64,000 bases of DNA, taken from NCBI GenBank assembly GCA_021292105.1, contig CM037874.1, positions 54,976,540-55,040,539 of the forward strand. Direction: 5' to 3'. This stretch comes from Anadara kagoshimensis. Taxonomy: Eukaryota > Mollusca > Bivalvia > Arcoida > Arcidae. The first letter of the stretch is position 1. Each line of letters opens with the position of its first letter. Under the pieces are notes generated by a model. It had not been told where the DNA came from, searched no databases, and saw nothing but the letters and a program-made list of their open reading frames with translations. Shown piece by piece: positions 4,418 through 38,900 of the stretch. The translations under genes and the position numbers were made by a program.

Positions 4418-5098
4418 CATATAACTCTTATCATATATCATTTATTTTATATACATGTATCTGTTTTCATATATAACTTTTATCATATATCATTGTATCT
4501 GTTTTCATATATAACTTTTATCATATATCATTGTATTTGTTTTCATATATAACTTTTATCATATATCATTGTATCTGTTTTCATATATAACTTTTATCAT
4601 ATATCATTGTATTTGTTTTCATATATAACTTTTATCATATATCATTGTATTTGTTTTCATATATAACTTTTATCATATATCATTGTATTTGTTTTCATAT
4701 ATAACTTTTATCATATATCATTGTATCTGTTTTCATATATAACTTTTATCATATATCATTGTATTTGTTTTCATATATAACTTTTATCATATATCATTGT
4801 ATTTGTTTTCATATATAACTTTTATCATATATAATTGTATTTGTTTTCATATACAACTTTTATCATATATCATTGTATCTGTTTTCATATATAACTTTTA
4901 TCATATATCATTGTATTTGTTTTCATATATAACTTTTATCATATATCATTGTATTTGTTTTCATATACAACTTTTATCATATATCATTGTATCTGTTTTC
5001 ATATATAACTTTTATCATATATCATTGTATCTGTTTTCATATACAACTTTTATCATATATCATTGTATCTGTTTTCATATACAACTTTTATCATATGT
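4418..5098. repeat. 38-bp tandem satellite, about 17 units
   Basis: The unit is close to GTATTTGTTTTCATATATAA followed by CTTTTATCATATATCATT. It repeats about every 38 bp from near 4456 to 5098, with degenerate edges on both sides. Variants are few (TATCTG/TATTTG, ATATAA/ATACAA), so homogenisation looks recent. The 100-plus-codon open frames across it are artefacts of a stop-poor repeat whose length is not a multiple of three. Confidence 0.9.
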
Positions 5099-5463
5099 CA
5101 ATCATTTCATTTTTCCCATGCCATTTCTATCATATATCTTTTTCATATATCATTTCTTTCAAATGTCTTTGTTCATATATATTTTTCATATTTTTCCATG
5201 TATTGAATGATAATTTAACAAAATATGTATGGCAGAGGCAATGCATACTCATTATGATACTTTGGGTAGAGTATATATACATGTATCCCGTTAAACTAAT
5301 CAAGTTTTGCAAAAATAACTGGTACATGCATGTGAAACACGTTGTTGGTCACAGAAATATCTAAATATCTATAACAAGTTTATCTAGGACGTTAATAGGC
5401 CAGATTTTGACTTATGATCCGTATTTAGCGTTATAAACCCAGTGTTAATTGGTTTACAGTCAT

Positions 5464-5706: not shown

Positions 5707-6080
5707 TGTCGTATTGACAAAACCTGGGCATCATGTTTGTCATTAAATTCATTCTGTGTTTATCGTTTGTCACGTGAAATAGATTCCCTCAGATTTAACA
5801 ACCCAGAGAGCATTTAGGGAATCAAAGCTATGATTAAATTAAGCTTTTAAGAATCAAAATTGGATTTTTCTTCAACAAAGGAATATTTTGGAATTGAATG
5901 AAATATTTGAGATTTGATGATTTAAGAATAAGATTGCACTTACCTGTATGGATCAAAGCAAATGCTAAATGGATCTTAAATTAGCGGAAAAGTGAAATCA
6001 ACAAAAACCTACATGTCATAGCCAGGGAATACACACTTTATTTTTACAACCTGTAGATTATAACATATTACAGCAGGGAA

Positions 6081-6349
6081 ATGAACGACAGGGAGCTCGG
6101 TGTTTTGACTAGAAATCGGGTTTTATTGATAAAGAATATAATCCCGACGGATGATTTTTATACTGCATTAAAAACTTACAATGTTTTACCAGATTCTATG
6201 ATCAAAGAAGTCAAGGTACGTACACATGCACGTGGAGAGAGAGAGAGAGAGAGAGAGAGAGTTGAATTAGAAATTCGACAAAGTAACGACCTTTATTGCA
6301 AACAACATACTCCCTCTACATTGTGCTTACTATTGCAATCTTCCCCTCT

Positions 6350-6381
<32 letters not shown>

Positions 6382-9300
6382 ATACACCATGCGTTAGACA
6401 CCATGCTAAGTGGGGTTTCTGATATACGCATTTTAATTACGTTTTAAACTTAAAGTTACCTCCTTGATACTTATTAATTTATTGCAGACATACACATTAT
6501 ATAATATATGTGTAAATACTATTTGTAAATAAAATACTTTAAATTTCTTTCTTATTTTTATAGAAAACATAACAATCGATATCTTTAACCCAATACACGT
6601 TAATGAGGTTAACTAATAGATGAAGTGACTTTTTTCCCGCACTTTTAAGTAATTATACTTAATTTCTCGTAATCTTCAACCAATACTCTTATATGCACGT
6701 TTTTATTCAGTGCATTATACAAAAGTGTAATTGCGTGATAAAAATATTTCAGAATTAATTCGGTTAATTTGAGTTTGAATTTAAAATAAGGATTGTTCAG
6801 ATAATGTATGGTATTGCCCTTCTTACAAGTCGATACGATTATATCGTGTTAAAATAATGAAATTAAAATACGGCATTTTAAAGATATGCAGTTAAACCTG
6901 TCTATAAAGTTCAACCAAGGGAACCAGTAAAAGTGGCCTTTATGAGCAAGTGGCCTTAAATATACAGGTTCAAATAATATGAAGAAATAACAATTGGGAT
7001 ACAATGGTCTTAATAAGCACGTGGTCCTTATATAGAGGTGGCTTTTAAGGCAGGTTGGACTGCATATGGAAAATCTGATTGGAAGCATGAAAATTAATGG
7101 CGTCTGGTAAAAATTTCGCACTATCTTACGCGTTAGTAATTTTTAACAGAGACATATAAAACCCATTTATATGTCTCTGTTTTTAATATCAAATATTTAT
7201 TAATATTTGGCCTTATAAAATAAGAAAAAAATCCAGTCTTGACTTGAGAAGTCGTATTAACTTGCATGTTATTTATATATTTATTTGTTCATTTGAAGAT
7301 TTTAGTGACCATGTTGATCATTTGACAGGGTCATCGGTGTCCGAGTGGTATAAAGACGTAAGCTTGCAGATCACAAGACCTCTCAGTAGAGGCCTGTCTG
7401 AATGGGAATCGAACGGTTCATATCCCATTCAGGCAGATCCTACTTGGGCGAGATAGATTTTCATTTCGCTTGCCGAAAATCGCTGGTTTCCTTCGGGTAT
7501 TCCTGTTTCCCCGCAAGCCTAGAACCGGTCGTCTCGATATAAGTGTTAGAATCTTGACTTGGGCGTGTAAGACCATCCTTCCACTCCACTTCAAGGAAAT
7601 GTTTGACGAAATATTGTATGTAAAACAGGGAATTCTTAAGCAAATTGTCATATACTTTTGAATTTACTCATAAAATACACTAAAATAGTATATGACAATA
7701 TATTTTAAGTTGTATATGACAAAATGATATACAAGTATACTCTGTACTGTTACTATAGTAACCGTTTTACAGTTTCTCTGGCAATTAAAAAGATCGATCT
7801 AACACCTATCGTTTATCATGATTAAATGAACCATTTTAAACTGTTATATACAAGACCACGACATCTCATCATTAAAACTTGACGTAAATATAAACAACCA
7901 AAATAAACAAATAAACAACGGTATGGAATTCGAAAGTCACATTAATTAGTTAAACTCAATTTATCTCAGTTAAATTAAGTTTAACTCAGTTAAACTTAAT
8001 TTAACTGACAAATAATTCACATGAACTGGACTATCTCTTATTAACTGGAGATAAACCTGGTTATTCTCATTTTTGTGACTTTCGCGTCAGTTAATAGTAG
8101 TTGTAACTATTATGGAATTCGAAAGTCACATTAATTAGTTAAACTCAATTTATCTCAGTTAAATTAAGTTTAACTCAGTTAAACTTAATTTAACTGACAA
8201 ATAATTCACATGAACTGGACTATCTCTTATTAACTGGAGATAAACCTGGTTATTCTCATTTTTGTGACTTTCGCGTCAGTTAATAGTAGTTGTAACTATT
8301 ATTAACTGACAATTTGCATTAACTGCAGATAAGTTGAGTTGTTCAGTTCATGCGAGATAATAATATATTGATGTAATAAAGCATGTGTGACTTTACATGT
8401 TCAAGAAATTAAAAATTTATATAAATACACACATGTGGAGATCCTCTAAATGTCTATTTGTATTCACCATTAACAAATTAAGCTGACAATTGTATATTTT
8501 TTTAAGGAATTTAGTGCTTGAATATATTTATCAAAAAATATGAACAATTGATACTTTTATATTATTTTTTTAATTTAAAAGTTAATAATCAACCGAATAT
8601 GTAAATTATTCAGTGAGGAATAGTTAAGCAAATATGTAAATTATTCAGTGATAAATAGTTAAGCATTTTTAAGCATTCTGTTTTAGATTTTAATAAACAT
8701 GATACAATACACACTTGCTTACCTTGTTATTTTCATCATAAAAGTTCTTCCAAGATTTTATCTCTTACTAAGTCAATTGAACTAAGTTTCATGAGATACA
8801 AACCAATCAAAACGCTTGCCGAGTTCATACGAGTTAATTGTCAGTTCATGGCAATTATTTCTCAGTCAAGTATGGAATTCGAAAGTCACATTAATTAGTT
8901 AAACTCAATTTATCTCAGTTAAATTAAGTTTAACTCAGTTAAACTTAATTTAACTGACAAATAATTCACATGAACTGGACTATCTCTTATTAACTGGAGA
9001 TAATCCTGGTTATTCTCATTTTTGTGACTTTTGCGTCAGTTAATGGTAGTTGTAACTATTATTAACTGGCAATTTTCATTAACTGCAGATAAGTTGAGTT
9101 GTTCAGTTCATGCGAGATAATAATATATTGATGTAATAAAGCATGTGTGACTTTACATGTTCAAGAAATTAAAAATTTATATAAATACACACATGTGGAG
9201 ATCCTCTAAATGTCTATTTGTATTCACCATTAACAAATTAAGCTGACAATTGTATATTTTTTTAGAGGAATTTAGTGCTTGAAGATATTTATAAAAAAAT

Positions 9301-12300
9301 ATGAACAATTGATACTTTTATATTATTTTTTTAATTTAAAAGTTAATAATCAACCGAATGTGTAAATTATTCAGTGATGAATAGTTAAGCGAATATGTAA
9401 ATTATTCAGTGATGAATTGTTAAGAATTTTTAAGCATTCTGTTTTAGATTTTAATAAACATAATACAAGACACACTTGTTTACCTTATTATTTTCATCAT
9501 CAAAGTTCTTCCAAGATTTTATCTCTTACTAAGTCAATTGAACTAAGTTTCATGAGATACAAATCAATCAAAACGCTTGCTGAGTTCATACGAGTTAATT
9601 GTCAGTTCATGGCAATTATTCCTCAGTCAAGTCATATTAAAAGCAGATAAAATCGATTTATCTGAGTTAAATTAAGTTTTTCTCCAGTTAAGTCGAATTA
9701 ATTTGCATTTTCTTAGTTAAACTAAGATATTCTGTAATTCGCATTAACTGCAGTTAATGCAAATTAATTGACATTAACTGAGTTAAATTAAGTTTAACTG
9801 AGATAAACTTAATTTAACTGAGATAAATTGAGTTTAACTAATTAATGTGACTTTCGAATTCCATAGTCAAGTCATATTAAAAGCTATGGAATTCGAAAGT
9901 CACATTAATTAGTTAAACTCAATTTATCTCAGTTAAATTAAGTTTAACTCAGTTAAAATTAATTTAACTGACAAATAATTCACATGAACTGGACTATCTC
10001 TTATTAACTGGAGATAAACCTGGTTATTCTCATTTTTGTGACTTTCGCGTCAGTTAATGGTAGTTGTAACTATTATTAACTGACAATTTTCATTAACTGC
10101 AGACAAGTTGAGTTGTTCAGTTCATGCGAGATAATAATATATTGATGTAATAAAGCATGTGTGACTTTACATGTTCAAGAAATTAAAAATTTATATAAAT
10201 ACACACATGTGGAGATCCTTTAAATGTCTATTTGTATTCACCATTAACAAATTAAGCTGACAATTGTATATCTTTTAGAGGAATTTAGTGCTTGAATATA
10301 TTTATCAAAAACTATGAACAATTGATACTTTTATATTATTTTTTTTAATTTAAAACTTAATAATCAACCGAATATGTAAATTATTCAGTGATGAATAGTT
10401 AAGCGAATATGTAAACTATTCAGTGATGAATAGTTCAGCATTTTTAAGCATTCTGTTTTAGATTTTAATAAACATGATACAAGACACACTTGTTTACCTT
10501 ATTATTTTCATCATCAAAGTTCTTCCAAGATTTTATCTCTTACTAAGTCAATTGAACTAAGTTTCGAATTCCATAAAAAGCAGATAAAATCGATTTATCT
10601 GAGTTAAATTAAGTTTTTCTCCAGTTAAGTCGAATTAATTTGCATTTTCTCAGTTAAACTAAGATATTCTGTAATTCGCATTAACTGCAGTTAATGCAAA
10701 TTAATTGGCATTAACTGAGTTAAATTAAGTTTAACTGAGTTAAACTTAATTTAACTGAGATAAATTGAGTTTAACTAATTAATGTGACTTTCGAATTCCA
10801 TAAAACGGCGCTTCATTTATTTTTTATTGGTATAGCTAAACAACTTTGACCTGTCCGCTTGACCTTAATTTAAATACAGTCAAACGTACCTATAAAAGCC
10901 ACCCATGGGAACCAGTTAAAGTGTCTTTTAAGGGCAGGTAATCCTTATATATAGGTTCAAATAAGTGAATAAAGAGCAATTGGGATAAAAGTGTACCGGC
11001 CGTTATAAGCAGGTGACCCTTATATAGAGGTGGACTGTACAGTTAAACCTGCTTTAAAGGTCTCATCTATATAAGGAACACCTGCTTTGAAAGGCCGTTG
11101 AACTTTTATCCCAGTTGTTATTTCAATGATTCGTGTTAATGAAACCTATACATAAGGACCACCTGTCATATTAAGGTCACTTTTACTGGTCCCCGTGGAT
11201 GGCCTTTATAGACAAGATCGACTGTATTCGTTATGGACCAATGGCGCTGTACACAAGGAACACGTGTGTTTATTTTGTGTAGAGCATGTGGAATATGTAT
11301 TGTGTATGTATTATGTGTGAGTCCTAACATTACTTATGTATCGGGTTGATTGTGGTATATGAAAGCTCAAGTGGACAGGTTAAAGTTGTGTAGCTAGCTA
11401 AACAGGAGGTGCTTACCCTTCCGGAGCACCCGGCCTCACTTCCCTGGTGGAAGTTCACGTGTCTAACCTAACTTGTCAGTTCCAAAGTTTTTACTTTGCT
11501 TCTGGATTGTGATTCGGAAATGGATAAGTATGTTTGTTTTTGATTATCTTTAATAAAACTATCATGGTATATAAAAGGTCAAGCAGACAGGTCAATGTTG
11601 TTTGCCTATAGTAAAACTATCCCTTTCAATGTCCTTATGATAATGTTATCTTTTAATAAAACTTTAAATATTTATGTTTTTATTGTATCATAATTTATTG
11701 AGTTGATTTAGAAATTATATTGGATCATAAAACACTTGACTTTATCTTTTGTAATGATGGGACGAGTAAAGGATGAATACACCAAACAACATTTACTGAG
11801 ATACGTAACGTACTTTATAAATATGTGTCCAAATTGAATCCATAATGTAAATTTTGAAGCCTTTATGTACAGGGTTAAAAGTTCATCAGTAATATACAAC
11901 AAACCCTGCTTATAGCGACCACCCCTTATATCTATATAACGACAACCTTTCTTTACATCAAAACATGATATAGTGACCATCTCTATATGAAGACTACCTG
12001 TCTATAGAGTAAAACCTGCTTTAGACACCATTTCTTTGTAACGAATAACTGTATTTAAATAAAAGCTGTTATTGTGACCACCTCTATATAAGGACCACAT
12101 ACCAATTAAAACCACCAGTCCCTTTGCTTCAAATTTCAACCAAGAAACCCATCTATATATAAAGATCACCTTTCTATAAATTCCATATTTTCAAGGGTAG
12201 TCATTGTGCAGAATTTACTACATGCAGACCTGTCGAAAGTTTAACACTGGGCTAAAGAAAAGGAATAAAAGCTCGACGAGTGGTCCAGTATTATGGATAA

Positions 12301-15300
12301 CCAGTAACAAAACCTGCAAAGAGATAGATAGCAGCTCCTGAAAGGCCCGATGATGAGCTATCTTTTCGGCACTAATTTGTTTGCTGAAACTTAGTGTTAA
12401 ATTTTCTTCATACCTAGCCCGTGGCCAGTTGTTTGAAGCATAATTAGTTTGATCAGTGATTAATGCAAATTAAAAACATCAATAAAAATCAAAATAACAT
12501 CATCAAATTCATTTTTTTAACAATGTGCTTGAGTTTTGTGAAATTCCATCTATTTTTGAAATTTTCAAGTTTAATTTCACAACAAAATTGAAAAAATGCG
12601 AACTTCATTTTTGACTAATCAATTGATTAATCTAATCAGACTTCGAACAACTGACCCCTGTACTGTACTTCAACATTCAACTGACCCCTGTACTGTACTT
12701 CAACATTCAACTGACCCATGTACTGTACTTCAACATTCAACTGACCCCTGTACTGTACTTCAACATTCAACTGACCCCTGTACTGTACTTCAACATTCAA
12801 CTGACCCCTGTACTGTACTTCAACATTCAACTGACCCCTGTACTGTACTTCAACATTCAACTGACCCATGTACTGTACTTCAACATTCAACTGACCCCTG
12901 TACTGTACTTCAACATTCAACTGACCCCTGTACTGTACTTCAACATTTTCAAATTTTGAAAAAGTAACCCGATTATTCCAGGTACACTCCACTTATGAAT
13001 GTAAAACTATTTAAAATATTTTCAATTCATCATTGCACAATATGTGTATGAAATTTGTTTTTCTTAATAACGCGTTAATATGCATGTACAGAGCCTGTAA
13101 GGTTGCGTGTTTCGTATTTTCGAAGTGATATGTCGATTTTTCGTTACTTCATAAATTTGCAATAGCTAAATTCCTTAAAATCGTTTATTATGAATAGTAT
13201 TCCGTACATTCGTAATTATCTTTAGTATGAAAATACAAAATAAGTTTTGCAAAATTTTATATAAAATGAATATTGCGTACAAACGAATTTATTTGACTAT
13301 TGCGAATATACAAAATACAGTCACACCTGTCTATAAGGACCACCAAAGGAAACAAGTAAAAGTGGACTTTATGAACAGATGGACTTTATATACAGGTTCC
13401 AATTATATAAATAACGAATAATGGGGATACAATTCTACTGGCTGTTTAAGCAGGTGACCCTTATTTAGAGGTGACTTTTAAAGCAGGCTTGGTTGTATGC
13501 TATTATAACCTTTTCACAAGTCACCTTACGGACTCCGTCTGGAGTGTTGTCTATGATAATAAAATTTTAACGATTTACAAACAATCGTTGTTGTCGCGCC
13601 CATCATATATAGTCTGAACACCCAGTACAATACCGGATATATCATAAGGGTTAACTAAAGTATTAAAACAATTTTGATGATTTAAACAAACATACATGTG
13701 GTTAATATTGCCCCACCCATTGTAATTTATACACATACGTTATAAAATATATCATAAATCTTATACAAGGTGATTACAGTCTAACCTCTTTATAATGGTC
13801 ATCTAAAGGACCAAGTAACTTGTAGAGGTTTTCCTTCATAGTAACCACTAAGGTAGCTCATCTGATATCGTGCTCACTTCGTATGTGGAGGGTTGAGGTT
13901 CGAACTCCGAAAGGGGTCGGACATAGACTTGAAAATAGGTAGTGACTGTCCTTTTATTCTGAATTAAGCAATGAAAGTCATGGTGGTTCTTCGGGCGAAA
14001 CCTTAAAACCATGTGCCCCTTGTCACGACAGGCGTCAGGGCACGTGGAAGAACTCTCCCTGGGTGAAGTAATGGTGGTTTTTGTACCACTTATGATTTGT
14101 TTTCACTAGGTATTGAGTGGTTTGAGTAAACCAGAGCATTCAAGGAAATCCACGAACAGCGGTGAGACAAATCGTTTTTACTGTGAAGACTGAACAAAAT
14201 GTGGTGTGATATTTATTAAAAAGTTATACAAGATATAAAGTAAAACGTACAACTTGTATGGGGTGAATAGTGAACGTAGAATCCATACGTAAAAATACGA
14301 ATATTAGGTTAATACATTTGTATATGTAGAATGCATTATATTTTATTTTTTACAGTCAGGAAACACACGAGACGAGAAGATATCAACCTTGGTAAAATTA
14401 CTTCCCCTTGGATGGACAGATTCTTTCAGGAAATTCCGACAAGTTTTGAACGTCACAGGGCATTCAATACTTACTGACCAGCTTTATGAAGATGGTAATT
14501 CTAGCTTTAAAATTGTCGATGTAAATAAAGTCAATTGAAACAGTTTTTCGCAGGAAATGGCCTTTTGAACCGGCAGCAGAGTTATGTTATCACCTAATGA
14601 TTATTCAAAGTCGAGGGGTTTTAATTGATCACATTTTTTGAAATAGAGACCACTGCGGTAGCTCAGTTGGTAGAGTGCTCGCTCCGTAAGTGGGAGGTCG
14701 TGGGTTCAAACCCCGGCGGGGTCTGACCCAAGACTTGAAAGTGGGTAGTGACTGTTCTTTCGCCAAGCACTCTGCATTATGAAATGAAAGTCACGGTTCT
14801 TTTGGGTGTTAAAATAAACGACGTCCCGTGTCACGGGGGGCTTGGCACGCTAAAGAACCCTGTTGTATAATGCCATCAGCGCAACGCACAGGCAAAATTT
14901 CTGCACTTTCGTCTATGGCTGGCGACGTCTCGATATAAGTGAAATATTATTGACGGGGACGTTAAACACCATTACTACTACTACTCTTTTTTAAATAAAA
15001 GGAAATCTTTTCGAAAGGATCTAAAGTGAAAACTGTCAATTGATTGACCTGGCAAAAATTATCATGTTTCACAAACACAGCTGGTTTTATTATTTAATCA
15101 TATGTATCGGCCACATTTGCATTCCTCTATTTATGTACCACTGGTTGTTAACCACGCCACTATACATTTACTATATTGCCCGTCCAAACCATTGATATCA
15201 ATATGTGTTTGTCTTGTCTTGTTTAGCTGCTTTACATTGTGTCTTGTTCCTGGTTATTATTGCTTACCTGTTGTAAGTTTGCCGCAGCACTAGACGTCCG

Positions 15301-16646
15301 TTTCGAAATAAAATTCTGTACCAGTATTGTTAGGACCCAATTTGGGGAAATCCAAATATTTTAAGATGTTGAAATGCGAAAAATGTTTTCTGTTACCAAG
15401 TACATATTTTTAACTTTCAAATTTCTTCCTTTTATTTCAGATACAGAGATAAAACTACTGAATGCAGAAGAAACATTTTCTAAGTTTCCTTCCGTTTTTA
15501 ACCAAGTTAGTGACGACACAAAGTCAAAGTTTCTGAGGTTTCTGGAGACAAAGGTATGTGTCTGTACTATATCAGATGAACATTTGTTTATTGCGTTCCC
15601 CAAGAAATAGTGTCAACTCCATTTCTTCCGCATAAATGTTGTCCGCCACTTTTCTCGAAAACTATTCAACAGATCTTTATGAAACTTCACAGGAACAATC
15701 TTTGTGGAGTAGACGTGACATTTGCTTTTCGTATTTTTGATTATTTAATTGGTTGGTGATTTCCCAGTTTGTTTTTAGGGACAATTGTGAAAATGTATCC
15801 CATGCATAACATCTGCAGGTATAACAGAACGGTGGTTAACTGTTATCAACAAATGTTTCGTCAATTTGTACTCTAGTAAAATCTTTAACAATTTGTTTCC
15901 ACCATTTTCTTCAAGTTATTTACTATGTCGGGGTGTATAGGGTTTAATATGTATACCAATGGGTTTTGTCTTGAAGTTTTTACATATACATTCCCCTAAA
16001 ATACTCGTTTTTCTGATTTTACAGATTCGTGAAAAATTGGTGAAAAATGATTGGGTCAACTTTCCGCTTGAAAGGTGTGGGAAACTTGATGCAAAGAAAG
16101 CTATATTTGAAATGGAAAAAGAGTTTAAATCTAATTTAGATTCCAAAAAGAAACAGGTACAATATAACGTCCCTCAAACCAGAAGTAGGAGACATATTGG
16201 GTTTACTGCGTCAAGTTCTTCTTCCGCTTGAATTCTTGTTATTTAAATTTGGTGTATTACAATATTGAGAAAATAATTTTTTCCTAATTTTGAAAATTAA
16301 AACTGTATATTTATTGATTATTTAAAATCAAACGAATTTGATAAATTTAAGGATTCATATACGTAATTCCCTAGAGAGTAAGTTCCACAAATATTCCGGA
16401 TTTATAAGATAATCGGTATTTACTTAAAACGGGATAATTAAGGATAATCCCTCTGTCCCGGTATCTTAATCATTCTGATCACATTATCTTCGTCTTTTGA
16501 GCATGAAATAATTACCAAGTGGTTAACATGGGAGTAACTTATGTTTTAAATGTAGACTTATAGCTGTAAACATTTACTTGACAACAGCTAATGTAACCAA
16601 GAATGCCCTTACTATATACAGCATACAACAGAAAAAAACATATCAC

Positions 16647-16681
<35 letters not shown>

Positions 16682-18151
16682 AGAGATAAAAAGGTATTAG
16701 TAGTGTGATTAGTGGTTAAAGTATTGTTATACATGTATATCACTTTTTGAAGGTATTTTATGTTTAAATTCAAAAAAGCGATATATGACAGTATAAGTCT
16801 GTAATTGTACAGTAAGAAGATCGAATTTGTCCTTTTATTGTTCCCTTGTTTCTTCAATAAATATTTGCTGTTTGGTGTCTTAGATTGCATTTTGGCTATT
16901 GCATTTTTCATTCCTTTTAAAAGTGCTAGTATCATACGGACGAATGTACGAACAATCCTCTAAATACGTCTCATGTTTTATCGTTTTTAGGTAGAATCAG
17001 TTTCAACAGAAATCGCAGAAATGAAAGAAATTTGCAGACGACGGGAAATTGAAATAGAGATATTACAGCGGGAAATGGCTGAAATGCGTGACAAATACAA
17101 AGAATCGGTGAATATTCAAGGAAAATTTAATACCGCTAATAACAATACTATCATCAGACTACAGGAAAAGTTCACTGAATTCAATTCAAAAATCCGAACT
17201 CTGAATATATTGGTACAAAATTTTATGGGAGTACAAGAGACCAAATATGTGTCCGACTCCGACATGGTGAAAGTGTCCACACTGGAGAGGAATGTCCGGC
17301 ATTTGCTTCAAGTGTCGCAGTCCAACAAGGAAATAGCAAATAATGTCAGCAAGGAGCGCGAAGCCATCTTGTCACAACTAAACAAGTCAGTCAATAAAAA
17401 ACAACCGTTGTCTGAAATAATACAAAAATATCTAGAGAAAGAAGAAAAGAAAAAACTTGCACTTTTTCACGAAATTGAAAGGTTAAGTGAAAGCGCCTCT
17501 GATAAAAACTACGGAAGCTCAAAATGTCCAAGAGAAGTAACCGATATGAGAGCTCTACGTAATATGATTGCGACGGTAAGAGTTGAAGTTGAACATTTAA
17601 AGAAAAAGGTACAATGGAAAGATAACCAAATAACAGACCTTCTACAGGAGAATGCAAATTTGAGGCAAAATATCGGGAATTCAAAGAATTTAGACAAAAG
17701 TATGGCTACAACTATTACAACGTCGAGCGGTTCGGCGCTATCATCTCCGGATTCGACTTTTGACGTCAAATTTCACATTTCAAATCTTGAGAATTATATA
17801 CACACGGACCATTTGCCAGAATTTTCTAAAAGTTATGTGGCAGAAAATATCCAGTCGGACAATGGCATCGGGAAACTTTCCAGAGAATCTACAGACACGT
17901 CAATCACCGACCGATCGAAGGAGACGAAAGAAAATGGAACGCTAGACGATAAAACCTCGAGGGTTTCCGAAGAAAGACGTACTATCAACTTGACGGGTTT
18001 ACCGGTCGTAAGAGACAATGACGCTTTAGTAACAACGCCAAAAAGTAAAACAAACGACCAGTTATTTTATTACACAAATCCGAAAAGTACTGTTTCCGAA
18101 AAGAACCGTATTCCGACGCCTTTGGAATTTGTTCTGTCGTGGAGACGATGA
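6081..18151 (+). CDS. CARD-coiled-coil protein, about 559 aa, 5 exons
   Basis: Exons 6081-6215, 14356-14494, 15441-15553, 16025-16156 and 16991-18151 join with matching phases (0,1,0,0) at consensus GT/AG sites, giving 1680 nt. Residues 1-91 resemble a CARD: exon 1 carries NRVLLIKNI and VLPDSMIKEV (helices 1-3), and exon 2 carries TRDEKISTLVKLLP and NVTGHSIL (helices 4-6). This is the pattern of caspase-2 and NOD-type CARDs. Residues 92-173 are a charged helical linker. About 184-405 is heptad-rich coiled coil, and the rest is Ser/Thr-rich with no recognised domain. CARD proteins nucleate death-fold assemblies in apoptosis or innate immunity. The length and plan recall CARD9-type adaptors, but I see no specific sequence match and do not assign orthology. 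A 5' UTR exon may precede 6081, because a TTACAG lies just upstream. Confidence 0.8.
6236..6262. repeat. (GA)n microsatellite
   Basis: About 12 GA units, starting some 20 bp downstream of the donor site of CARD-gene exon 1. Confidence 0.9.
6346..6381. repeat. (TC)n microsatellite
   Basis: A TC tract with one interruption, 90 bp from the (GA)n tract. The two could pair as a hairpin in the transcript. Confidence 0.85.
6889..7062. mobile_element. CAGTCAAACCTG-family MITE
   Basis: It starts CAGTTAAACCTGTCTATAAA and ends with the inverse, TTTTAAGGCAGGTTGGACTG. The centre has the family signature AATTGGGATA. Six to eight related copies are spread through the window, and several are flanked by TA, suggesting Tc1/mariner-type mobilisation. 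Confidence 0.75.
7145..7182. repeat. Perfect short hairpin
   Basis: AACAGAGACATATAAA and its exact inverse are separated by about 6 bp, in intron 1 of the CARD gene. Function unknown. Confidence 0.6.
7326..7585 (+). mobile_element. tRNA-derived SINE, Leu/Ser-like head
   Basis: The head has an A-box-like TGTCCGAGTGGT and a B-box-like GGTTCATATCCC. The body ends with the shared SINE tail CGTCTCGATATAAGTG followed by a GAATCTTGACTTGGG-type motif. The head is too diverged to fold as a tRNA. Confidence 0.7.
7922..8299. repeat. 189-bp perfect-looking tandem duplication
   Basis: Positions 7922-8110 and 8111-8299 look identical to the eye. They duplicate the left 189 bp of the host element, so the event is recent relative to the element's insertion. 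Confidence 0.85.
8871..9865. mobile_element. Nested full-length copy (995 bp) of the TATGGAATTC element
   Basis: TATGGAATTC to GAATTCCATA, flanked on both sides by GTCAAG (8865-8870 and 9866-9871), a perfect 6-bp target-site duplication. The outer element resumes immediately afterwards. The open frame at 9417-9650 inside it is not protein-like. Confidence 0.9.
9885..10575. mobile_element. Nested 691-bp deletion derivative of the TATGGAATTC element
   Basis: Flanked by a perfect 6-bp duplication, AAAAGC (9879-9884 and 10576-10581). It matches the left two-thirds of the 995-bp copy, then jumps to the terminal GAATTCCATA, so about 300 bp of the right side is missing. Only about 10 bp of the right terminus was retained. 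Confidence 0.9.
10877..11037. mobile_element. CAGTCAAACCTG-family MITE
   Basis: Begins TACAGTCAAACGTACCTATA, ends GTGGACTGTA, and has the AATTGGGATA centre. TA flanks it on both sides. Confidence 0.75.
11040..11224. mobile_element. CAGTCAAACCTG-family MITE, opposite orientation
   Basis: Begins CAGTTAAACCTGCTTTAAAG and ends GACAAGATCGACTG. The centre reads TATCCCAGTT, the inverse of the neighbouring copy. Only two bases separate the two MITEs, so together they form a long imperfect palindrome. Confidence 0.7.
11391..11546 (+). mobile_element. Penelope-like 3' tail, copy 3
   Basis: Starts at GTAGCTAGCTAAACAGGAGG, contains CTTCCCTGGTGGAAGTTCAC and ends GTTTTTGATTAT. No reverse-transcriptase sequence is attached. 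Confidence 0.8.
11568..11612. mobile_element. Half copy of the GACCTGTCCGCTTGACCT-arm element
   Basis: A single arm, AAAGGTCAAGCAGACAGGTC followed by AATGTTGTTTGCCTATAG, directly downstream of the Penelope-like tail. Confidence 0.5.
12227..12395. mobile_element. CCTGTCG-family inverted-repeat element, second copy
   Basis: The left arm CCTGTCGAAAGTTTAACAC matches the element at 3253-3454. The right arm contains ACTTAGTGTTAAATTTTC. The arms are more diverged than in the first copy. Confidence 0.5.
12647..12948. repeat. 30-bp minisatellite, 10 units
   Basis: Ten head-to-tail 30-bp units (ACTGACCCCTGTACTGTACT then TCAACATTCA). Units 3 and 8 share a single C-to-A change, a spacing of exactly five units. 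The unit length is a multiple of three, so both strands read open for more than 110 codons as 10-residue repeats. I regard these frames as artefacts: the array is in intron 1 of the CARD gene, with no splice sites or homology. Confidence 0.95.
13318..13496. mobile_element. CAGTCAAACCTG-family MITE
   Basis: Begins CAGTCACACCTGTCTATAAG and ends AGCAGGCTTGGTTG, with an ATGGGGATAC centre. TA precedes and follows it. Confidence 0.7.
13850..14110 (+). mobile_element. Degenerate tRNA-headed SINE (GTAGCTCAGTTGG class)
   Basis: The head AAGGTAGCTCATCTGATATC and B-box-like GGTTCGAACTCC are followed by body motifs shared with 14646-14990 (AGTGACTGTCC, ATGAAAGTCATGG, TGTCACGACAGGC). Confidence 0.6.
14646..14990 (+). 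mobile_element. tRNA-headed SINE (GTAGCTCAGTTGG class), best-preserved copy
   Basis: The A box TAGCTCAGTTGGTAGAG and B box GGTTCAAACCCC are both intact, spaced as in a pol III promoter. The body contains AAAGTGGGTAGTGACTGTTC and ATGCCATCAGCGCAACGCAC. The tail has CGTCTCGATATAAGTGAAAT, GACGTTAAACACC and a short ACT microsatellite. The same element is antisense at 55733-56057. It resembles tRNA-derived SINEs of bivalves that I recall. The head does not form a clean anticodon arm, so I do not call a tRNA gene. Confidence 0.8.
15640..15705. repeat. Dispersed repeat (CTATTCAACAGATCTTTATG)
   Basis: About 65 bp nearly identical to 62300-62365 (AAACTATTCAACAGATCT, then ATGAAACTTCACAGGAACAA). Sited in CARD-gene intron 3. 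Element type unknown. Confidence 0.65.
16649..16680. repeat. (GT)n microsatellite
   Basis: Sixteen uninterrupted GT units in intron 4 of the CARD gene. Confidence 0.95.
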
Positions 18152-18316
18152 GGACAACGTTGAACTTGAACGAGTTAGTAGATATTATGGGGAGAAAACA
18201 AATCATTTAAGTTGCCTTCATTAAACGGTGCTAGCTTTGTTGACATCAATACTATCAAACAAACGGGTCAAAAGAAATTCAAATTATAATTAAATTAATT
18301 TCTTACTTTTTGTTTT

Positions 18317-18322
18317 AATAAA
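18317..18322 (+). terminator. Poly(A) signal of the CARD gene
   Basis: A canonical AATAAA 166 bp after the stop codon, followed by a GTTTGAGTCAGTTCTTGTTC GU/U-rich stretch. Confidence 0.6.
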
Positions 18323-20649: not shown

Positions 20650-23410
20650 ATGACGGACCGGGTGAAAATGGGAATGCCGCCAGCCACTGCGAGCATCAAC
20701 TGTTTAATTTCTTGGATCGGGTAATTAATGCTATATGGTTCAAAAGTATTCGGCAGCTATTTCTTAGAATTTTTGATACGGCAGGTGACAAGTCTGCTTG
20801 TCCTAATAGGCCTACTAAGCTGCCACAATTGTTGCTGGTCTGTCGCACATCCCACTGAGCTGCCACAATTGCTGATTTTATGCCACAAACCCACTGAGCT
20901 GCCACACTTGCTGCTTTTATGCCACAAACCCACTGAGGTGCCACACATGCTACTGACTGCCCACACCCGCTGGCCATAGTCCGACTAATCAGCCCACTAA
21001 ACAGCTAAACCCCCATTTTAATTTTTTTGACTTTTTGGGGGTTTGTGCCAAAAAAATTAAAATGGGGGTTTAGTGGGCTGATTAGTCAGACTACCGCTGG
21101 CCAGTGATGCATGTATACTGCTGGTCTGCCCTAGACCCCACTGGGCTGCCACACATGCTGCTGGTATGCATCACGCCCCATTGAGCTGTCACACATGCTG
21201 CTGGTATGCATCACGCCCCACTGAGCTGTCACACATGCTGCTGGTATGCATCACGCCCCACTGAGCTGTCACACATGCTGCTGGTATGCATCACGCCCCA
21301 CTGAGCTGTCACACATGCTGCTGGTATGCATCATGCCCCACTGAGCTGTCACACATGCTGCTGGTATGCATCACGCCCCACTGAGCTGTCACATGCTGCT
21401 GGTATGCATCACGCCCCACTGAGCTGTCACACATGCTGCTGGTATGCATCATGCCCCACTGAGCTGTCACACATGCTGCTGGTATGCATCACGCCCCACT
21501 GAGCTGTCACACATGCTGCTGGTATGCATCACGCCCCACTGAGCTGTCACACATGCTGCTGATCTGTATCACAACGAATTGAACTTCCATAGATGCTGGT
21601 GGTCTTCTCTACACCCCACTGAGCTGCCATAGATGCCTCTGGTTGCCCACACCTGACTGAGCTGTTGCACATGCTTCTGGTCTGTCCCACACCCCACTGA
21701 GTTGCCATAGATGCTGCTGGTCTGTCCCACACTCCACTGAGTTGCCATAGATGCTGCTGGTCTGTCCCACACTCCAATGAGCTGCCATAGATGCTGCTGG
21801 TCTGTCCCACACTCCAATGAGCTGCCATAGATGCTTCTGGTCTGTCCCACACTCCACTGAGTTGCCATAGATGCTGCTGGTCTGTCCCACACTCCAATGA
21901 GTTGCCATAGATGGTGCTGGTCTGTCCCACACTCCAATGAGTTGCCATAGATGCTGCTGGTCTGTCCCACTCCCCACTGAGTTGCCATAGATGCTGCTGG
22001 TCTGCCCCACACTCCAATGAGCTGCCATAGATGCTGCTGGTCTGCCCCACTCCCCAATGAGCTGCCATAGATGCTGCTGGTCTGCCCCACTCCCCACTGG
22101 GCTGTCACAGATGCTACTGGCTTAATTGGCAGTATAATAAACTTAATGCAATAAACAATTAGCTCATTAACTCTTAATTTTTAATATTGAAGATGCAAAG
22201 GTGATTTTGAAGCAGCTCATGTAAAAGCAGAGAAAATGTCAAAAAGTATACATGGATGGAGGCGGTACACTAGTGTATATACTGCTGAAGGAAATGTAAC
22301 GGTGAGTATATATGAGTCCACTTAACATACCAGTCTTGATCCAATGGAAAGTCAATGTCCAAATATAAGTGAAATATTCTTGACTTGGACATAAAAATTA
22401 TTCAAACAATCAATGGAAAATCACTCCCGAGAGTCAAGGGAATATTGATCCAAACTGCACTCATTAAAAATTTCATATTAAAAATTGCCAAAAATGTAAT
22501 TACATGTATTTCTATGTCTCTATATACAAAATTCTGGGTTCACAATTTTTCAAGCAAGAATAAACTGTTCTTTACCTATGACCTCTAAATTCATAGTGTC
22601 AGGTGAGGATACTTGTAGGCCTTGAAAGAATATTTATTTCATATTTTTGTGAACCAAAATGTTTAAATATACAGTCAAACCTGTCTATAAAGGTCACCCA
22701 GGGAAACCAGTAAACATGACCTTTATAGACAGATAGTCCTTATATACAGGTTCAAACATAAGAATAAAGAACAAATGGGATAAAATTTTACTGGCCTATA
22801 TACAGGGGTGGCCTTTAACACATGTTTGACTGTATTGTTACAATATGTATCTATATTTATTACTTATGCATCAATTACTGCAATACCAGGGTTTGACACT
22901 TACTTTTTTCAACAGTAGCCCACAGGGCTAGTAGTTGTTTGAAATCACTAGCCCTGCTTGAAGTTGGGTAGTCAGGGGCATGTCCACTTTCCCTCCCCCC
23001 TCACCCCAGAAAAATTGGTAAAATGGAGCAAAATCCAGCAATCTGGGGAAGTTTAGATTATGTATTCATTGGGTCTAAAAAGCTCTGTATTGAGTATATG
23101 ATCTACCTAATTGTTTTGAGATAAACTACTAGCTAATTGGGCTACTGGTAATACAAGATTCACTAGCCCTGACCAATTTTTACTAGCCTTGGGCTAGCAG
23201 GCTAGTGTTAGCGTCGATCCCTGAATACAGCACTAATTTGCGTTTCCTTGTTAGTAGTATGGCTACCATTTGTTGTATTAGTGTTTTTTTTGTTTGCAGG
23301 CATTTCTACTTTCCATTGCTCTTGTACCTGTGTATTATTATGGAGCTAAGTACATTATGCAAAGACGGAAAATGACCAGAAACAAAGAAATTAAGAATAC
23401 AACAGAGTAA
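20650..23410 (+). CDS. Unrecognised 96-aa single-pass membrane protein, 3 exons
   Basis: Exons 20650-20720, 22193-22301 and 23300-23410 have phases 2 and 0 that fit exactly at consensus GT/AG sites, giving 291 nt and 96 residues. Residues 1-24 read as a short Cys-containing, moderately hydrophobic N-terminus (ATASINCLISWIG). Residues 25-60 are polar and basic. One clear membrane span follows (about 60-76, TAFLLSIALVPVYYYG), then a basic tail (QRRKMTRNKEIK), so the C-terminus probably faces the cytosol or matrix. A YTSVYTAEG stretch before the span faintly recalls DAPIT-type ATP-synthase small subunits, too weakly to assign. A second in-frame ATG at 22236 would give a 58-aa form. Intron 1 is largely a 40-bp satellite. 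Confidence 0.65.
20800..22108. repeat. 40-bp satellite array, about 30 units in at least three sub-families
   Basis: Units near 20820-20965 are diverged and about 36 bp. Units at 21120-21565 follow CTGGTATGCATCACGCCCCA then CTGAGCTGTCACACATGCTG. Units at 21600-22108 follow TCTGTCCCACACTCCACTGA then GTTGCCATAGATGCTGCTGG. Because 40 is not a multiple of three and the unit lacks antisense stops, the minus strand is open in all three frames for 160-180 codons across 21547-22108. The array fills intron 1 of the small membrane-protein gene. Confidence 0.92.
20977..21093. mobile_element. 117-bp foldback MITE inserted in the satellite
   Basis: Ends TAGTCCGACTAATCAGCCCA and the inverse, TGGGCTGATTAGTCAGACTA, with arms of about 45 bp. 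The left arm has an extra AGCTAAAC. It is flanked by CCGCTGGCCA on both sides (20967-20976 and 21094-21103), a perfect 10-bp direct repeat that reads as a target-site duplication of 9-10 bp, the range of MULE-type elements. Confidence 0.85.
22672..22832. mobile_element. CAGTCAAACCTG-family MITE
   Basis: The cleanest copy: CAGTCAAACCTGTCTATAAA to CACATGTTTGACTG, flanked by TA on both sides, with AAATGGGATAAAATTTTACT in the centre. Lies in intron 2 of the small membrane-protein gene. Confidence 0.85.
22887..23223. mobile_element. hAT-like non-autonomous element, 337 bp, 5-bp target duplication
   Basis: The left end CAGGGTTTGACACTTAC matches the inverse of the right end (CAGGGATCGACGCTAAC on the other strand). 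AATAC flanks both sides (22882-22886 and 23224-23228). The interior has repeated CTAGCCC/GGGCTAG words. No transposase. Confidence 0.75.
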
Positions 23411-27414: not shown

Positions 27415-30400
27415 TATTGCTTCCTGTGAATGTATGGCCCATCCTGTTACAGAGGTCATTCTAGAAAAGGGCCATGGTGCCATTAATCCCTTATTTCACC
27501 AAATTACCCCACTGTTAAGGTCTTGGGGTCAAATTTAAAATTACATGAATGCAAAATTATTGATGAAATGGGGTTTTAGAGGAGTTTTTTAAATGGCCCA
27601 ATCTGAAAAATCCTAAAAAGAACACTGGTATTACACATGCACTGGTACCTGTCAGAATTTCTCAAACCCTGATCAGGATCACACTAGTTTGAAATTACTA
27701 ATGTGATCCTCCATGTCAATTTGCTAGTCCTCGGCATCACTTGAGTGGCTATCATATCAAATGTTTAATTTCCCTTACCCTTAACCCCGTGTAGAATTCA
27801 TCTAGAACCAAGCTCATAGACCGTGTAAGATTGGATACATATGATGTTTCATGCTCCAGCGCATCCTGAAAAGCCTCAAAATCTTCCATCCACTCCACGG
27901 CAAAACTGTTACTAACAATATCAATCTGTAGTAGTAAAATATATAAATCAAATAAAGTTTTAAAAAAAACACTGTCATCTCTGTACTCATAACTAGAATT
28001 GTCAGTGAAACTGACTTATTCCCCTGTGTTGGTTCTGTCATTGGGTCATGATCCTTGACCTATGCACCTAAAGTTTGGTATGTCACACAAAATAAATGTC
28101 AGTAAATCAGGTTCTACTGTAACTCTATAACACTGTACAGCATTTAAAATCCGCACATACATGTAAATATGTATAGCACAGTTATATTTTAGCAGAAGTG
28201 TCAGATGTTAAAACATAACTGCTGCTAAATTTTCTTATAAATGGAAAAAGTCTAAAAACAAGAATTTGCTAAAAGGGCTAATTATACTAACAATGTATAA
28301 GTGAAACATTACCTTGTTCATGGCCACAACAAAGGGTAGTTTTGTCTTATACAGTATACTACAGGCATATAACATGTTAGACATGAAGGTCACAGGATTA
28401 ACACTTCTAGATGTATCCATTACATACACAACCACTGTAGGGAATGAACTGGCCTGAAAAAAAAAATCACAGGAATAACATTTCTGATATCAAATAAAAT
28501 GAATGTGTAAACTGAAATGATTACAGCGGAATATAAGTTACACAGGTTATGTACAGGTTACACCATAGCCCCATGTCAAGGATTTATGTAGCCTGATCTA
28601 CAGGATAGAAGACAACCTAACCTTATTCAAAAGTAGCTTGCCAGAGATAGGGCTTTATAAAAACTGTAAACATGGTTATTTTTGCAAGTGGATTGTATTG
28701 TGGCATTTGGTGAGGGGGTTATTTTAAAGATTTTATCCATTCTCTAAACATGTAGCATATTTACACGAAAAGAGGGGGATATTTGTGGGGTTTTTTTCAA
28801 TCACAAAAATAGTGAAACTTTTCATCAAACTAAAATATTTAGGATACATCTGATGGCAAACATAGCACATAACAAAGAAAAAAGCTTGGTGCCTTATGTC
28901 CCAGCAGGATTGAAGAGGATAAGTAAGTTTGTAAATTAACTATGTTTACAGTATAAAGACTTACTAATGCTTCTGTAATGATGGTACCAGATGCGGACCA
29001 GGTAAATACTTCTATCTGTCCAGGTGTATCTAATACTACATATCTGAAATGAAAATAATAATTCTGAATCTACTAACTTCTATAGTCCCAATACTTTGTA
29101 TATACAGTTAGGTCTGCTATGGTGACCACCTCTATAATAAGCAACCTGTCTATTAAATCTTTTCAGATCCCATTTTTCTTCATATTTCAATCAAAATACC
29201 ACTTGTTTATCTATGAAGTACATATTTCTTATGACCCATGGGTGGTTTTTATACACAGATTTTACTGTACATACCACATGCAGGGATATATATTTATCTT
29301 GTCTTTTTTTTTTGCCAAGACTTTACTAATAGAATTAGATGGTGCCTAGGTTTCTTGCCTAAGGATTCACCAAATATTTGTGCCTAGGTTGGTTGCTAAG
29401 GATTCACCAAATATTTGTGCCTAGGTTGGTTGCTAAGGATTCACCAAATATTTGTGCCTAGGTTGGTTGCTAAGGATTCACCAAATATTTGTGCCTAGGT
29501 TGGTTGCTAAGGATTCACCAAATATTAAAAAAGTTTTAGACCACATTAAGGTTTCTGAAAAGTATAAAAGGGCAGGCATTCACTTTTATCATTAATCATT
29601 CTTACTAATGACATTTTTTAATTTTCTTGAAAATATTTTTAAAAAAAATATAGGCTATATAGTCTATGTAACCTGTACAAAATTAATATGAAATGAAATA
29701 AAAAAAATCTTTTTTTTTTAAAAATTAAAAAATGTATAAAACCATATTTACAATGAATATACTTTTAGTTTTGCACATAAAATACATGTACCATACTTAC
29801 TTGCAATCAGGAGATCTTTTGTCTAAAAACATCATGACCTACAACAAAAGCAGATACATTGTAAATGTAAACTGGAGATCTAATTACCTTACCAGTATTC
29901 ACCAGGGCCCTGAATGCTCACCTGAGCTTGATTTGCAACTTCATGTATTGTACATAATGTAATTTGATTTAGGTAAAAACAAATATGAAAAATGAAACTT
30001 CTAGTTTAATAAGGTTTGATTCTCAATAATATACTAATTTGACCTAACTTTTATCTGAGCAGTGAGTAATTGCAAGTGTAATTAAGATTGGCACACAAAT
30101 ATGGGGTCTACAGTGATAACATTTGCAGTCGGCCTAGTGACCCGATTTTGTCACAACATAACACATATATGAATTCTATCTACCATAGCTAATATTAAGT
30201 TCTTATTCAGATGAAGTTTGATACAGAATGAGGGAAAAATGTAGTTTTTAGAGTGCTAATGATGAAATGTTGACAAGGTAGTTGAAAGTCTTTTAATGGT
30301 GACAGACAAAAAATGATCACAATGTGGTGATAAAAATATCAATATTTTCTAAATGTTACTAACTTGAAACAGATCACAATATATTTTTTTGTCACCCTTC

Positions 30401-35918: not shown

Positions 35919-38900
35919 ATGGATAACTACCATGTTCTGGAGATTATTGGTGAAGGTTCCTTTGGTAAAGTTTACAAAGGGCGTAAAAAATTTACTGGTC
36001 AGGTGAGACTTTTACTGGAAAGTTAAAAAATTGACATTGTTGATATGATTATGAAACTTAAAATTTACTGGGATGGGGAAGTAAACTCGAGTGCCTGGAG
36101 AAAACCACATCATTGGCAAGCGAACTGACCAACTTTCTTACACTAGGATTTGTCCTGAACCAAGGCATTAAGAGGCACTGTGATCTATAAGCCAACATTT
36201 TAGACCACTTGGAAATTAAAGTCTGTTTTTTCAGTTACTGCAAGATGCACTAAGATGTATTGAAATTCCATGATTACTGTCGGACTACCTTGGATGAAAT
36301 CTCTAATCAAACATACAGTAAGCTTTTTAAATAAAATTAATAGAGCTCTGTAATTCTAATTCAAGATTTTCTTTTAAAAATATTTAATTTCATTAATTTG
36401 TATAAATTCTATTTTTACTTTTTGATTTGTTTACAGGTAGTGGCTTTGAAATTTATTCCAAAAGTTGGAAAACCTGAGAAAGAACTGCGTAATTTACGAC
36501 GTGAAATTGACATTATGAGAGGATTACATCATGACAATATAATACAAATGTTAGACAGCTTTGAAACTGACAAAGAAGTAAGTTACTGTTATCCTTCTAT
36601 TATTTCAAACAGATTTTAATAGATTCTTTTTCAAGCATCCTGGAATTTAGTGGAAATTTGAAAATTAAACATTTGAAAAATTGGCATGTCTGAATCATTT
36701 TATGCAAGAACTTCAACAAATTGATGATGCCATTTTCAAAAGACACAGATGATGGCATGAAAACGGGACATTTGATACAAATACTTATTTACAAATCATG
36801 ATTTTATGGTGCAGAGGAGTAATTAGTACTGTTAGGATTTTGTTAGTCCCGGTGCTTACACTTAACTTTTCAAGTTATTTACATATTTAATTACAGGTAT
36901 AATTGTAGGTGTCAAAATTATATTTGAGTTCTAGTCACAATGTTATATAAATAATGCTGTAATATATTATGATAGCATGTACATGTTGGTGTGTTGATAT
37001 ATTTGTAATAGATATTATTACAGATATGGTATGTAGGAAACACATGTTTGACTAATGGAAAAAAAGATGCCATTGAGCAATTATCAATTGTCATTCTCTG
37101 TAGCTCAAAAAATGGCTCTCATTTAATGAGTTGCTCCCAAAATTTCCCCCATTAGATAGTAAACAAAATTAATTTTGAATGTAATAAATGAATTGACGAA
37201 AGTTCATGTTTGATCGTCTATTGTTTTCTGTGTTACAGGTTGCCGTAGTAACTGACTATGCAGAAGGTGAATTGTTTCAGATTCTTGAAGATGATGGCAG
37301 CTTACCTGAGGAGCAAGTATGTTATGTTAAGTTAAACTGTTTTGAAAATCAATACTATAAATCAGCTCCCATCTCTACCTATGTTAGAAAGTTTGTCAGT
37401 TTGTTTAACGTTAAAGTACTCTGTTGTACTTCACTGTCTTACAACTGACTGTTGTAAAAAATTGTTTTTTCCATTGATCTCTCTCAAGCACTGTTAGCGC
37501 TTACCAAACAGAATTATACCAACTGATCATCCGATTTAAAGTTTTAGCAATGTGAGTGAAATGGGGTTTTACATAAAATTTAAGTTATTTCCTTTATATT
37601 TAGATGTCACCAGCTATAGACTTTCACATTGTAATAATGATAATGAGGAGGAAAGTCTTCTTTTTTGCCATGTCACAGGACATTGATTCTTAAAGTCTGT
37701 GGTCCTCTCAAGCATTGACACACTTGTTGTTTGTTTTTCTTGCACATATTTGCATTAATTTGTATTCTGAAAGGACTTAGAATTCCTTGAAAAAATTATG
37801 ATAAATTAATTTTTTGCATTTCTATTTCAGGTGCAGCACATAGCATGTCAGTTGATTTCAGCACTTTATTACCTTCATTCTCATAGAATTCTTCACAGAG
37901 ATATGAAACCCCAGAATATATTACTGGGTAAAGGAGGAATTGTCAAACTATGTGATTTTGGATTTGCCAGAGCTATGAGCTTTAACACTTTGGTGTTAAC
38001 CTCCATAAAGGTACAATAATACTTTGGTTTTTGTAACCCCTCACAAGGTTTCATCAATTTTAAAATTATTAGGAGACAAATTTACTTTAGAAATATTTTT
38101 TTATTAATTTGCTAAAATAAATAATTTTTTATGGAATTTTTTAAATGGAATTTCTCAGAAATCAGTATCCAATGGTTTTCAGTCACTCTGAAATAATTTC
38201 TAACTTCCCTTTTGGAAGTTCACATGTTGAACTTAATTTTCAAAGTGTTTGCTTATTGTAATGATTTGAACATGGATCAGTATGCTTGATTTTGATTACT
38301 AAGTTAATATTTATGAACATGCCTACCAGATGATTCATACCTTTGTTGTTTTTTCCAGGGTACTCCATTATATATGTCTCCTGAGTTAGTAGAAGAAAAA
38401 CCTTATGACCATACAGCTGATCTGTGGTATGTGAATATGCATGTAACAACTCCCAATATTCATACAATAACATTATGTAATAAAAATCAGTATGAAATTT
38501 ACATGTCACTAAGTTCTGTATTTTTACATTACATGTGCTACAATTGTTTATTATGTTTATTCCATGATCTGTAAATTTGTAAATTTGCTTTTTTCATCAT
38601 AAACATGCACATGTATACTAAAACTGTTTTGTGTTTGCATTTTAAAGCAAGCTATTATTTATTTTTGGGCCTTTGGTTATGATTCACAGCTATCTCACTG
38701 GTTCAAATCCCACTGGTGTACAATTTGCTTGTTGAAAGTTGGCTTTCTCCAGATATTCCGATTTTGTCCACCATCCCAGAACTGACCATTTTCATATAAG
38801 TGTAAAAAGAGATACATGTATACTCCAAAACAACATTGTTCCACTTGAAAACAGAATTGCTCTTCTCCAAAACAGAATTGCTTCACTCCAAGCCACAAGT

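Follow-up and report, generated by a model that had tools for sequence, protein, structure and literature searches.

The described proteins nearest in layout to the one considered here are CARD9 and CARD11, in which an N-terminal caspase-recruitment domain (CARD) at rest packs on the linker and coiled coil (in CARD9 through linker residues V102, F103, M105, I106 and I107) and, on release, builds the helical templates on which BCL10 nucleates (PMC6624267). Homologues of BCL10 and of this CARD-coiled coil family (CARD-CC: CARD9/10/11/14) have been reported from molluscs (PMC5978004). In caspases of the caspase-2/9 type the CARD is encoded by two exons, split at the border between helices 3 and 4 (H3/H4) in phase 0 (PMC7836458). 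According to an oyster study, a CARD-bearing APAF-1 homologue had not been identified in Mollusca, from which a distinct activation of caspase-9 is inferred there (PMC5550854), and the missing APAF-1 CARD is also discussed in the study of bivalve caspases (PMC7836458). The gene analyzed in the present work lies in a 64,000-nucleotide stretch of DNA from the bivalve Anadara kagoshimensis (hereafter the window; C18:54976540-55040539 in a genome of 36 contigs and 1.115 Gb). It is a real gene, its five-exon model is correct apart from a doubtful C-terminus, and its product appears to combine the layout of CARD9 and CARD11 with a CARD of another type.

Gene model and the split CARD

The gene is on the forward strand, with the following parts in window coordinates:

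6081..6215, + strand, exon 1: start codon and CARD helices 1-3, residues 1-45, ending in phase 0 with a GT donor
6216..14355, + strand, intron 1: 8.1 kb, repeat-rich, with 20-, 35- and 189-bp tandem repeats and an array of ten 30-bp units
14356..14494, + strand, exon 2: CARD helices 4-6, residues 46-91
15441..15553, + strand, exon 3: linker with KFP motif, residues 92-129
16025..16156, + strand, exon 4: charged linker running into the coil, residues 130-173
16991..18151, + strand, exon 5: coiled coil, residues 174-412, and Ser/Thr-rich, probably disordered tail, residues 413-559

All borders are GT/AG, the phases run 0/1/0/0 and the spliced frame is free of stops over 559 residues, as the initial annotation had stated; the first methionine of the open reading frame at 6057-6422 is encoded by the ATG at 6081. 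The junction between exons 1 and 2 was examined by joining exon 2 to every upstream GT preceded in phase 0 by 15 or more open codons (n = 281), and likewise by joining exon 1 to each AG up to position 30,000 (n = 401). The donor at 6215 ranks first of the 281 and the acceptor at 14355 first of the 401, with runners-up 12 and 15 bits lower, and the other phase-0 joins tried for either exon are rejected.

Taken singly, exons 1 and 2 have no Pfam match, and a CARD match requires that they be joined. The profile search of residues 1-91 that had been proposed with the initial annotation gives 19.2 bits with PF00619 (E 0.0012, aligned over 3-80 of 85), under the curated cut-off of 23.9, and the whole 559-residue protein gives 15.3 bits (E 0.02). 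Because such CARDs diverge, a profile was also built from 28 of this genome's own CARDs (loci L001-L028), out of 92 CARD matches (the genome contains at least that many). The joined exons score 37.8 bits with this own-genome profile over positions 2-81, i.e., the whole domain, compared with 11.1 bits for exon 1 alone, 16.0 for exon 2 alone, 1.2 for the reversed sequence and a top score of 10.0 bits in 200 shuffles of the joined exons. A full-length match to the six-helix CARD domain is thus obtained through the own-genome profile, the Pfam score alone being below its cut-off. Judged by these scores, exons 1 and 2 together encode a caspase-recruitment domain, and the suspicion that a CARD-like fold is split between them is borne out. 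A second CARD in residues 92-173 is rejected (1.6 bits with the own-genome profile). A search of PDB sequences with the window CARD returned 0 matches at E up to 10.

A second copy and its constraint

Searched with the spliced protein, the genome shows a second copy of the gene, with all five exons collinear, at C18:55867107-55875834, 0.88 Mb away. Every exon retains its splice sites in both copies. Exon 4, flanks included, is 99.4% identical, and in introns 2, 3 and 4, which were compared, 6.1%, 10.2% and 2.3% of the aligned sites, respectively, are different, in addition to indels. Codons 1-549 carry 35.5 synonymous and 7.5 non-synonymous differences between the copies (synonymous divergence dS 0.110, non-synonymous divergence dN 0.0058), giving a dN/dS of 0.05 (binomial p 5e-17, for two copies from the same genome); residues 1-91, the CARD, show one conservative change. 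This comparison argues strongly that the gene is held by purifying selection and is functional.

The C18 segment itself is taken to be doubled, because the gene and an exon of the neighboring protein kinase gene each occur twice, the latter with exactly two genome matches (55015558 and 55907484). The kinase exons lie at 36344-39285 (+) in the window and probably belong to STK36. The doubling suggests either an uncollapsed haplotype or a recent segmental duplication, and the former is favored because several other CARD matches in the genome are also paired, about 1-2 Mb apart. The two copies part at their 3' ends, where two further features are located:

18120..18190, + strand, small-indel region between the copies: the window copy stops at 18151, and the second copy continues
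18317..18322, + strand, AATAAA, likely polyadenylation signal, in both copies

Since the second copy reads through to 606 residues, as against 559, the last ~10 residues of the window copy are doubtful; the difference may reflect allelic variation or an assembly error. The exons and splice sites of the initial annotation stand, and its C-terminal end is in doubt. A separate observation concerns intron 2, where about 350 bp of the window copy (14636-14983) are lacking in the second copy. A sequence resembling a transfer RNA (tRNA) can be seen by eye at ~14655-14725, so the stretch may be a tRNA-derived short interspersed nuclear element; ARAGORN called no tRNA in the window.

Coil, CARD affinities and related genes

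AlphaFold2, run on exon 5 alone from a single sequence and with low confidence (mean predicted local distance difference test score 51.6), predicts four long helices (protein residues 175-254, 263-309, 313-343 and 353-412) and mostly disorder from ~413. On a heptad-contrast measure, residues 174-254 and 353-412 score above every one of 500 shuffles; residues 263-309 are matched by 20 of the shuffles and residues 313-343 by 109 (117 for residues 92-173 and 214 for the tail). About 240 residues are thus predicted to be helical, with a coiled-coil signal in the first and last parts and a weak middle, as only the outer parts beat every shuffle; of the ~220-residue coiled coil originally proposed, the two ends are supported, with weaker backing for the middle. 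The other proposed parts are found as described: the linker between CARD and coil is 80 residues long, its charged portion in exon 4 leads into the coil, and Ser and Thr make up 27% of the tail (413-559). Weak Pfam matches to TSC22, EzrA, MAD and similar families, all below cut-off, are rejected, and a TRAF6-like PxExx motif at residue 353, the sole match in the 606 residues of the second copy, is judged to be chance.

The CARD9/11 orthologue of this genome is a separate locus on contig C5. The window CARD is neither orthologous to those of CARD9/10/11/14 nor nearest to them, the coil has no detectable homology to theirs, and a regular expression for the CARD9-type hydrophobic linker found no match in the 559 residues (the C5 orthologue was not run, and a divergent linker could serve). 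The CARD is also not of the BCL10 type, which rules out BCL10, and no caspase catalytic domain is present among the 11 Pfam rows for the protein (E up to 10), which rules out a caspase. The initial annotation could not match the gene to any of these, and by most features tested the gene appears not to be CARD9/10/11/14.

In pairwise scores, the best match of the window CARD is to a CARD-coil gene on C7, followed by caspase-9-type CARDs. The window gene also has in common with a CARD caspase (L036) the division of the CARD into two exons at H3/H4 in phase 0. L036, together with L050 (C14), is a CARD-bearing initiator caspase whose CARD is closest to caspase-9 among PDB sequences. Helices 1 and 4 of the window CARD have more basic than acidic residues, like the CARD caspase, whereas in helices 2-3 the caspase is the more acidic of the two, a comparison that says little. 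A clade with the caspase-9 CARDs receives support of only 84/57 and has L016 inside, and a stricter clade gives p 0.26. The best reading is that the window CARD is more like the caspase-2/9 type than like CARD9/CARD11, the trees leaving its placement unsettled.

A paralogue of the window gene on C13 has intron places and phases in common with it and a similar coil. Its counterpart of exon 2 is 43% identical, that of exon 3 has matching phases and the KFP motif, and its CARD half scores 24.7 bits with PF00619, just above the cut-off of 23.9. A counterpart of exon 4 was not found there (two candidates, neither similar), and no exon 1 stands out within 9.4 kb upstream among 236 joins tried. The two genes are best read as a small family separate from CARD9/CARD11; the interpretation offered with the initial annotation, a divergent CARD-CC member or a lineage-specific adaptor, is partly supported. 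The C7 gene (L037, C7:36708000-36711000; CARD plus coiled coil) scores 54.8 bits with its upstream exon, and similar half-CARD matches occur at five further places on C7. At least three CARD-plus-coiled-coil arrangements (on C5, C7 and C18/C13) are present in the genome without a clearly shared coil, so that this layout is no proof of a CARD9-like gene.

Elsewhere in the window are a reverse-transcriptase-like open frame at 375-1115 (+; RVT_1, 19.9 bits, under cut-off), which we take to be Penelope-like, exons of an ATP_bind_1 (PF03029) gene at 27752-29069 (-), presumably GPN1, and minisatellites at 4433-5100 (38-bp units), 12648-12947 (30-bp) and 21118-22120 (40-bp). Among the other CARD matches, tandem CARD-like stretches occur in pairs in long open frames at L010 (two Pfam places) and L042-L044 (two profile rows each), and are seen by eye at L003, L006, L013 and L017. 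At L062 (C22:363040-366324), contig C22 (728,465 bases) carries an intron-free frame of 901 residues that by eye resembles bacterial DNA gyrase A and does not use TGA as a codon. The contig, which also carries a short lipoprotein-like frame by eye, is probably a bacterium assembled together with the host, perhaps a mollicute-like one.

Proposed function and comparison with known systems

Because the order of its parts is the same, the window protein may work on the principle of CARD9 and CARD11: the coil would keep several chains together, the clustered CARDs would seed a helical CARD filament, and the filament would recruit a CARD-bearing effector, with linker and tail holding the protein off at rest as in CARD9/CARD11. 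The favored reading, held at somewhat better than even, is a functional CARD scaffold that works in this way, yet as a member of another small family, with a CARD nearer the caspase-2/9 type; its likeliest partner, ahead of BCL10, would be either a CARD initiator caspase or a further CARD adaptor, and the scaffold would perhaps serve the CARD initiator caspases instead of BCL10/MALT1.

A CARD followed by a coiled coil, as in CARD9/10/11/14, would also be expected of a second, fast-evolving protein of that type seeding BCL10/MALT1 filaments, which the CARD and coil comparisons above make unlikely. A similarly small chance is given to a decoy or brake, a role in which CARD-only proteins act: here an initiator-caspase-type CARD fused to a coil would sequester CARD caspases or adaptors. 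The caspase-like CARD with its intron fits such a role, as does the lack of catalytic or nucleotide-binding families among the Pfam rows, but the conserved long coil and tail speak for assembly and not simple sequestering, and nothing is direct either way. Slightly less probable is a structural (e.g., cytoskeletal) coiled-coil protein whose CARD is a mere docking module outside immune and death signaling; about 240 residues of predicted helix and sub-threshold Pfam rows that, CARD aside, are largely coiled-coil families would suit it, but coil matches of that sort are generic and the CARD is constrained.

The scaffold reading has a bolder form, whose probability is put on a par with that of the structural role: the window gene and the paralogue on C13 would be a family of coiled-coil oligomerizers with a caspase-9-type CARD, standing in for the APAF-1 CARD and clustering CARD initiator caspases. 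A conserved oligomerizing scaffold with a caspase-like CARD would, on this hypothesis, be a concrete candidate for such a caspase-9 platform in molluscs. Among the titles and abstract openings listed by the literature searches, none describes a mollusc coiled-coil protein with a CARD of the caspase type.

Compared with known systems, the window protein resembles CARD9 and CARD11 in its N-terminal CARD, coiled coil and subsequent tail, and CARD filament assembly would be expected of it as well; it differs from them in the low score of its CARD, in a coil not of that family, and in the place and phase of the CARD intron, and a CARD with a coiled coil should not by itself be taken as CARD9-like. 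BCL10 has a Ser/Thr-rich tail, and the window protein too combines a CARD with such a tail. Unlike the initiator caspases caspase-2 and caspase-9, it carries a coil and a tail and no caspase domain in its Pfam rows.
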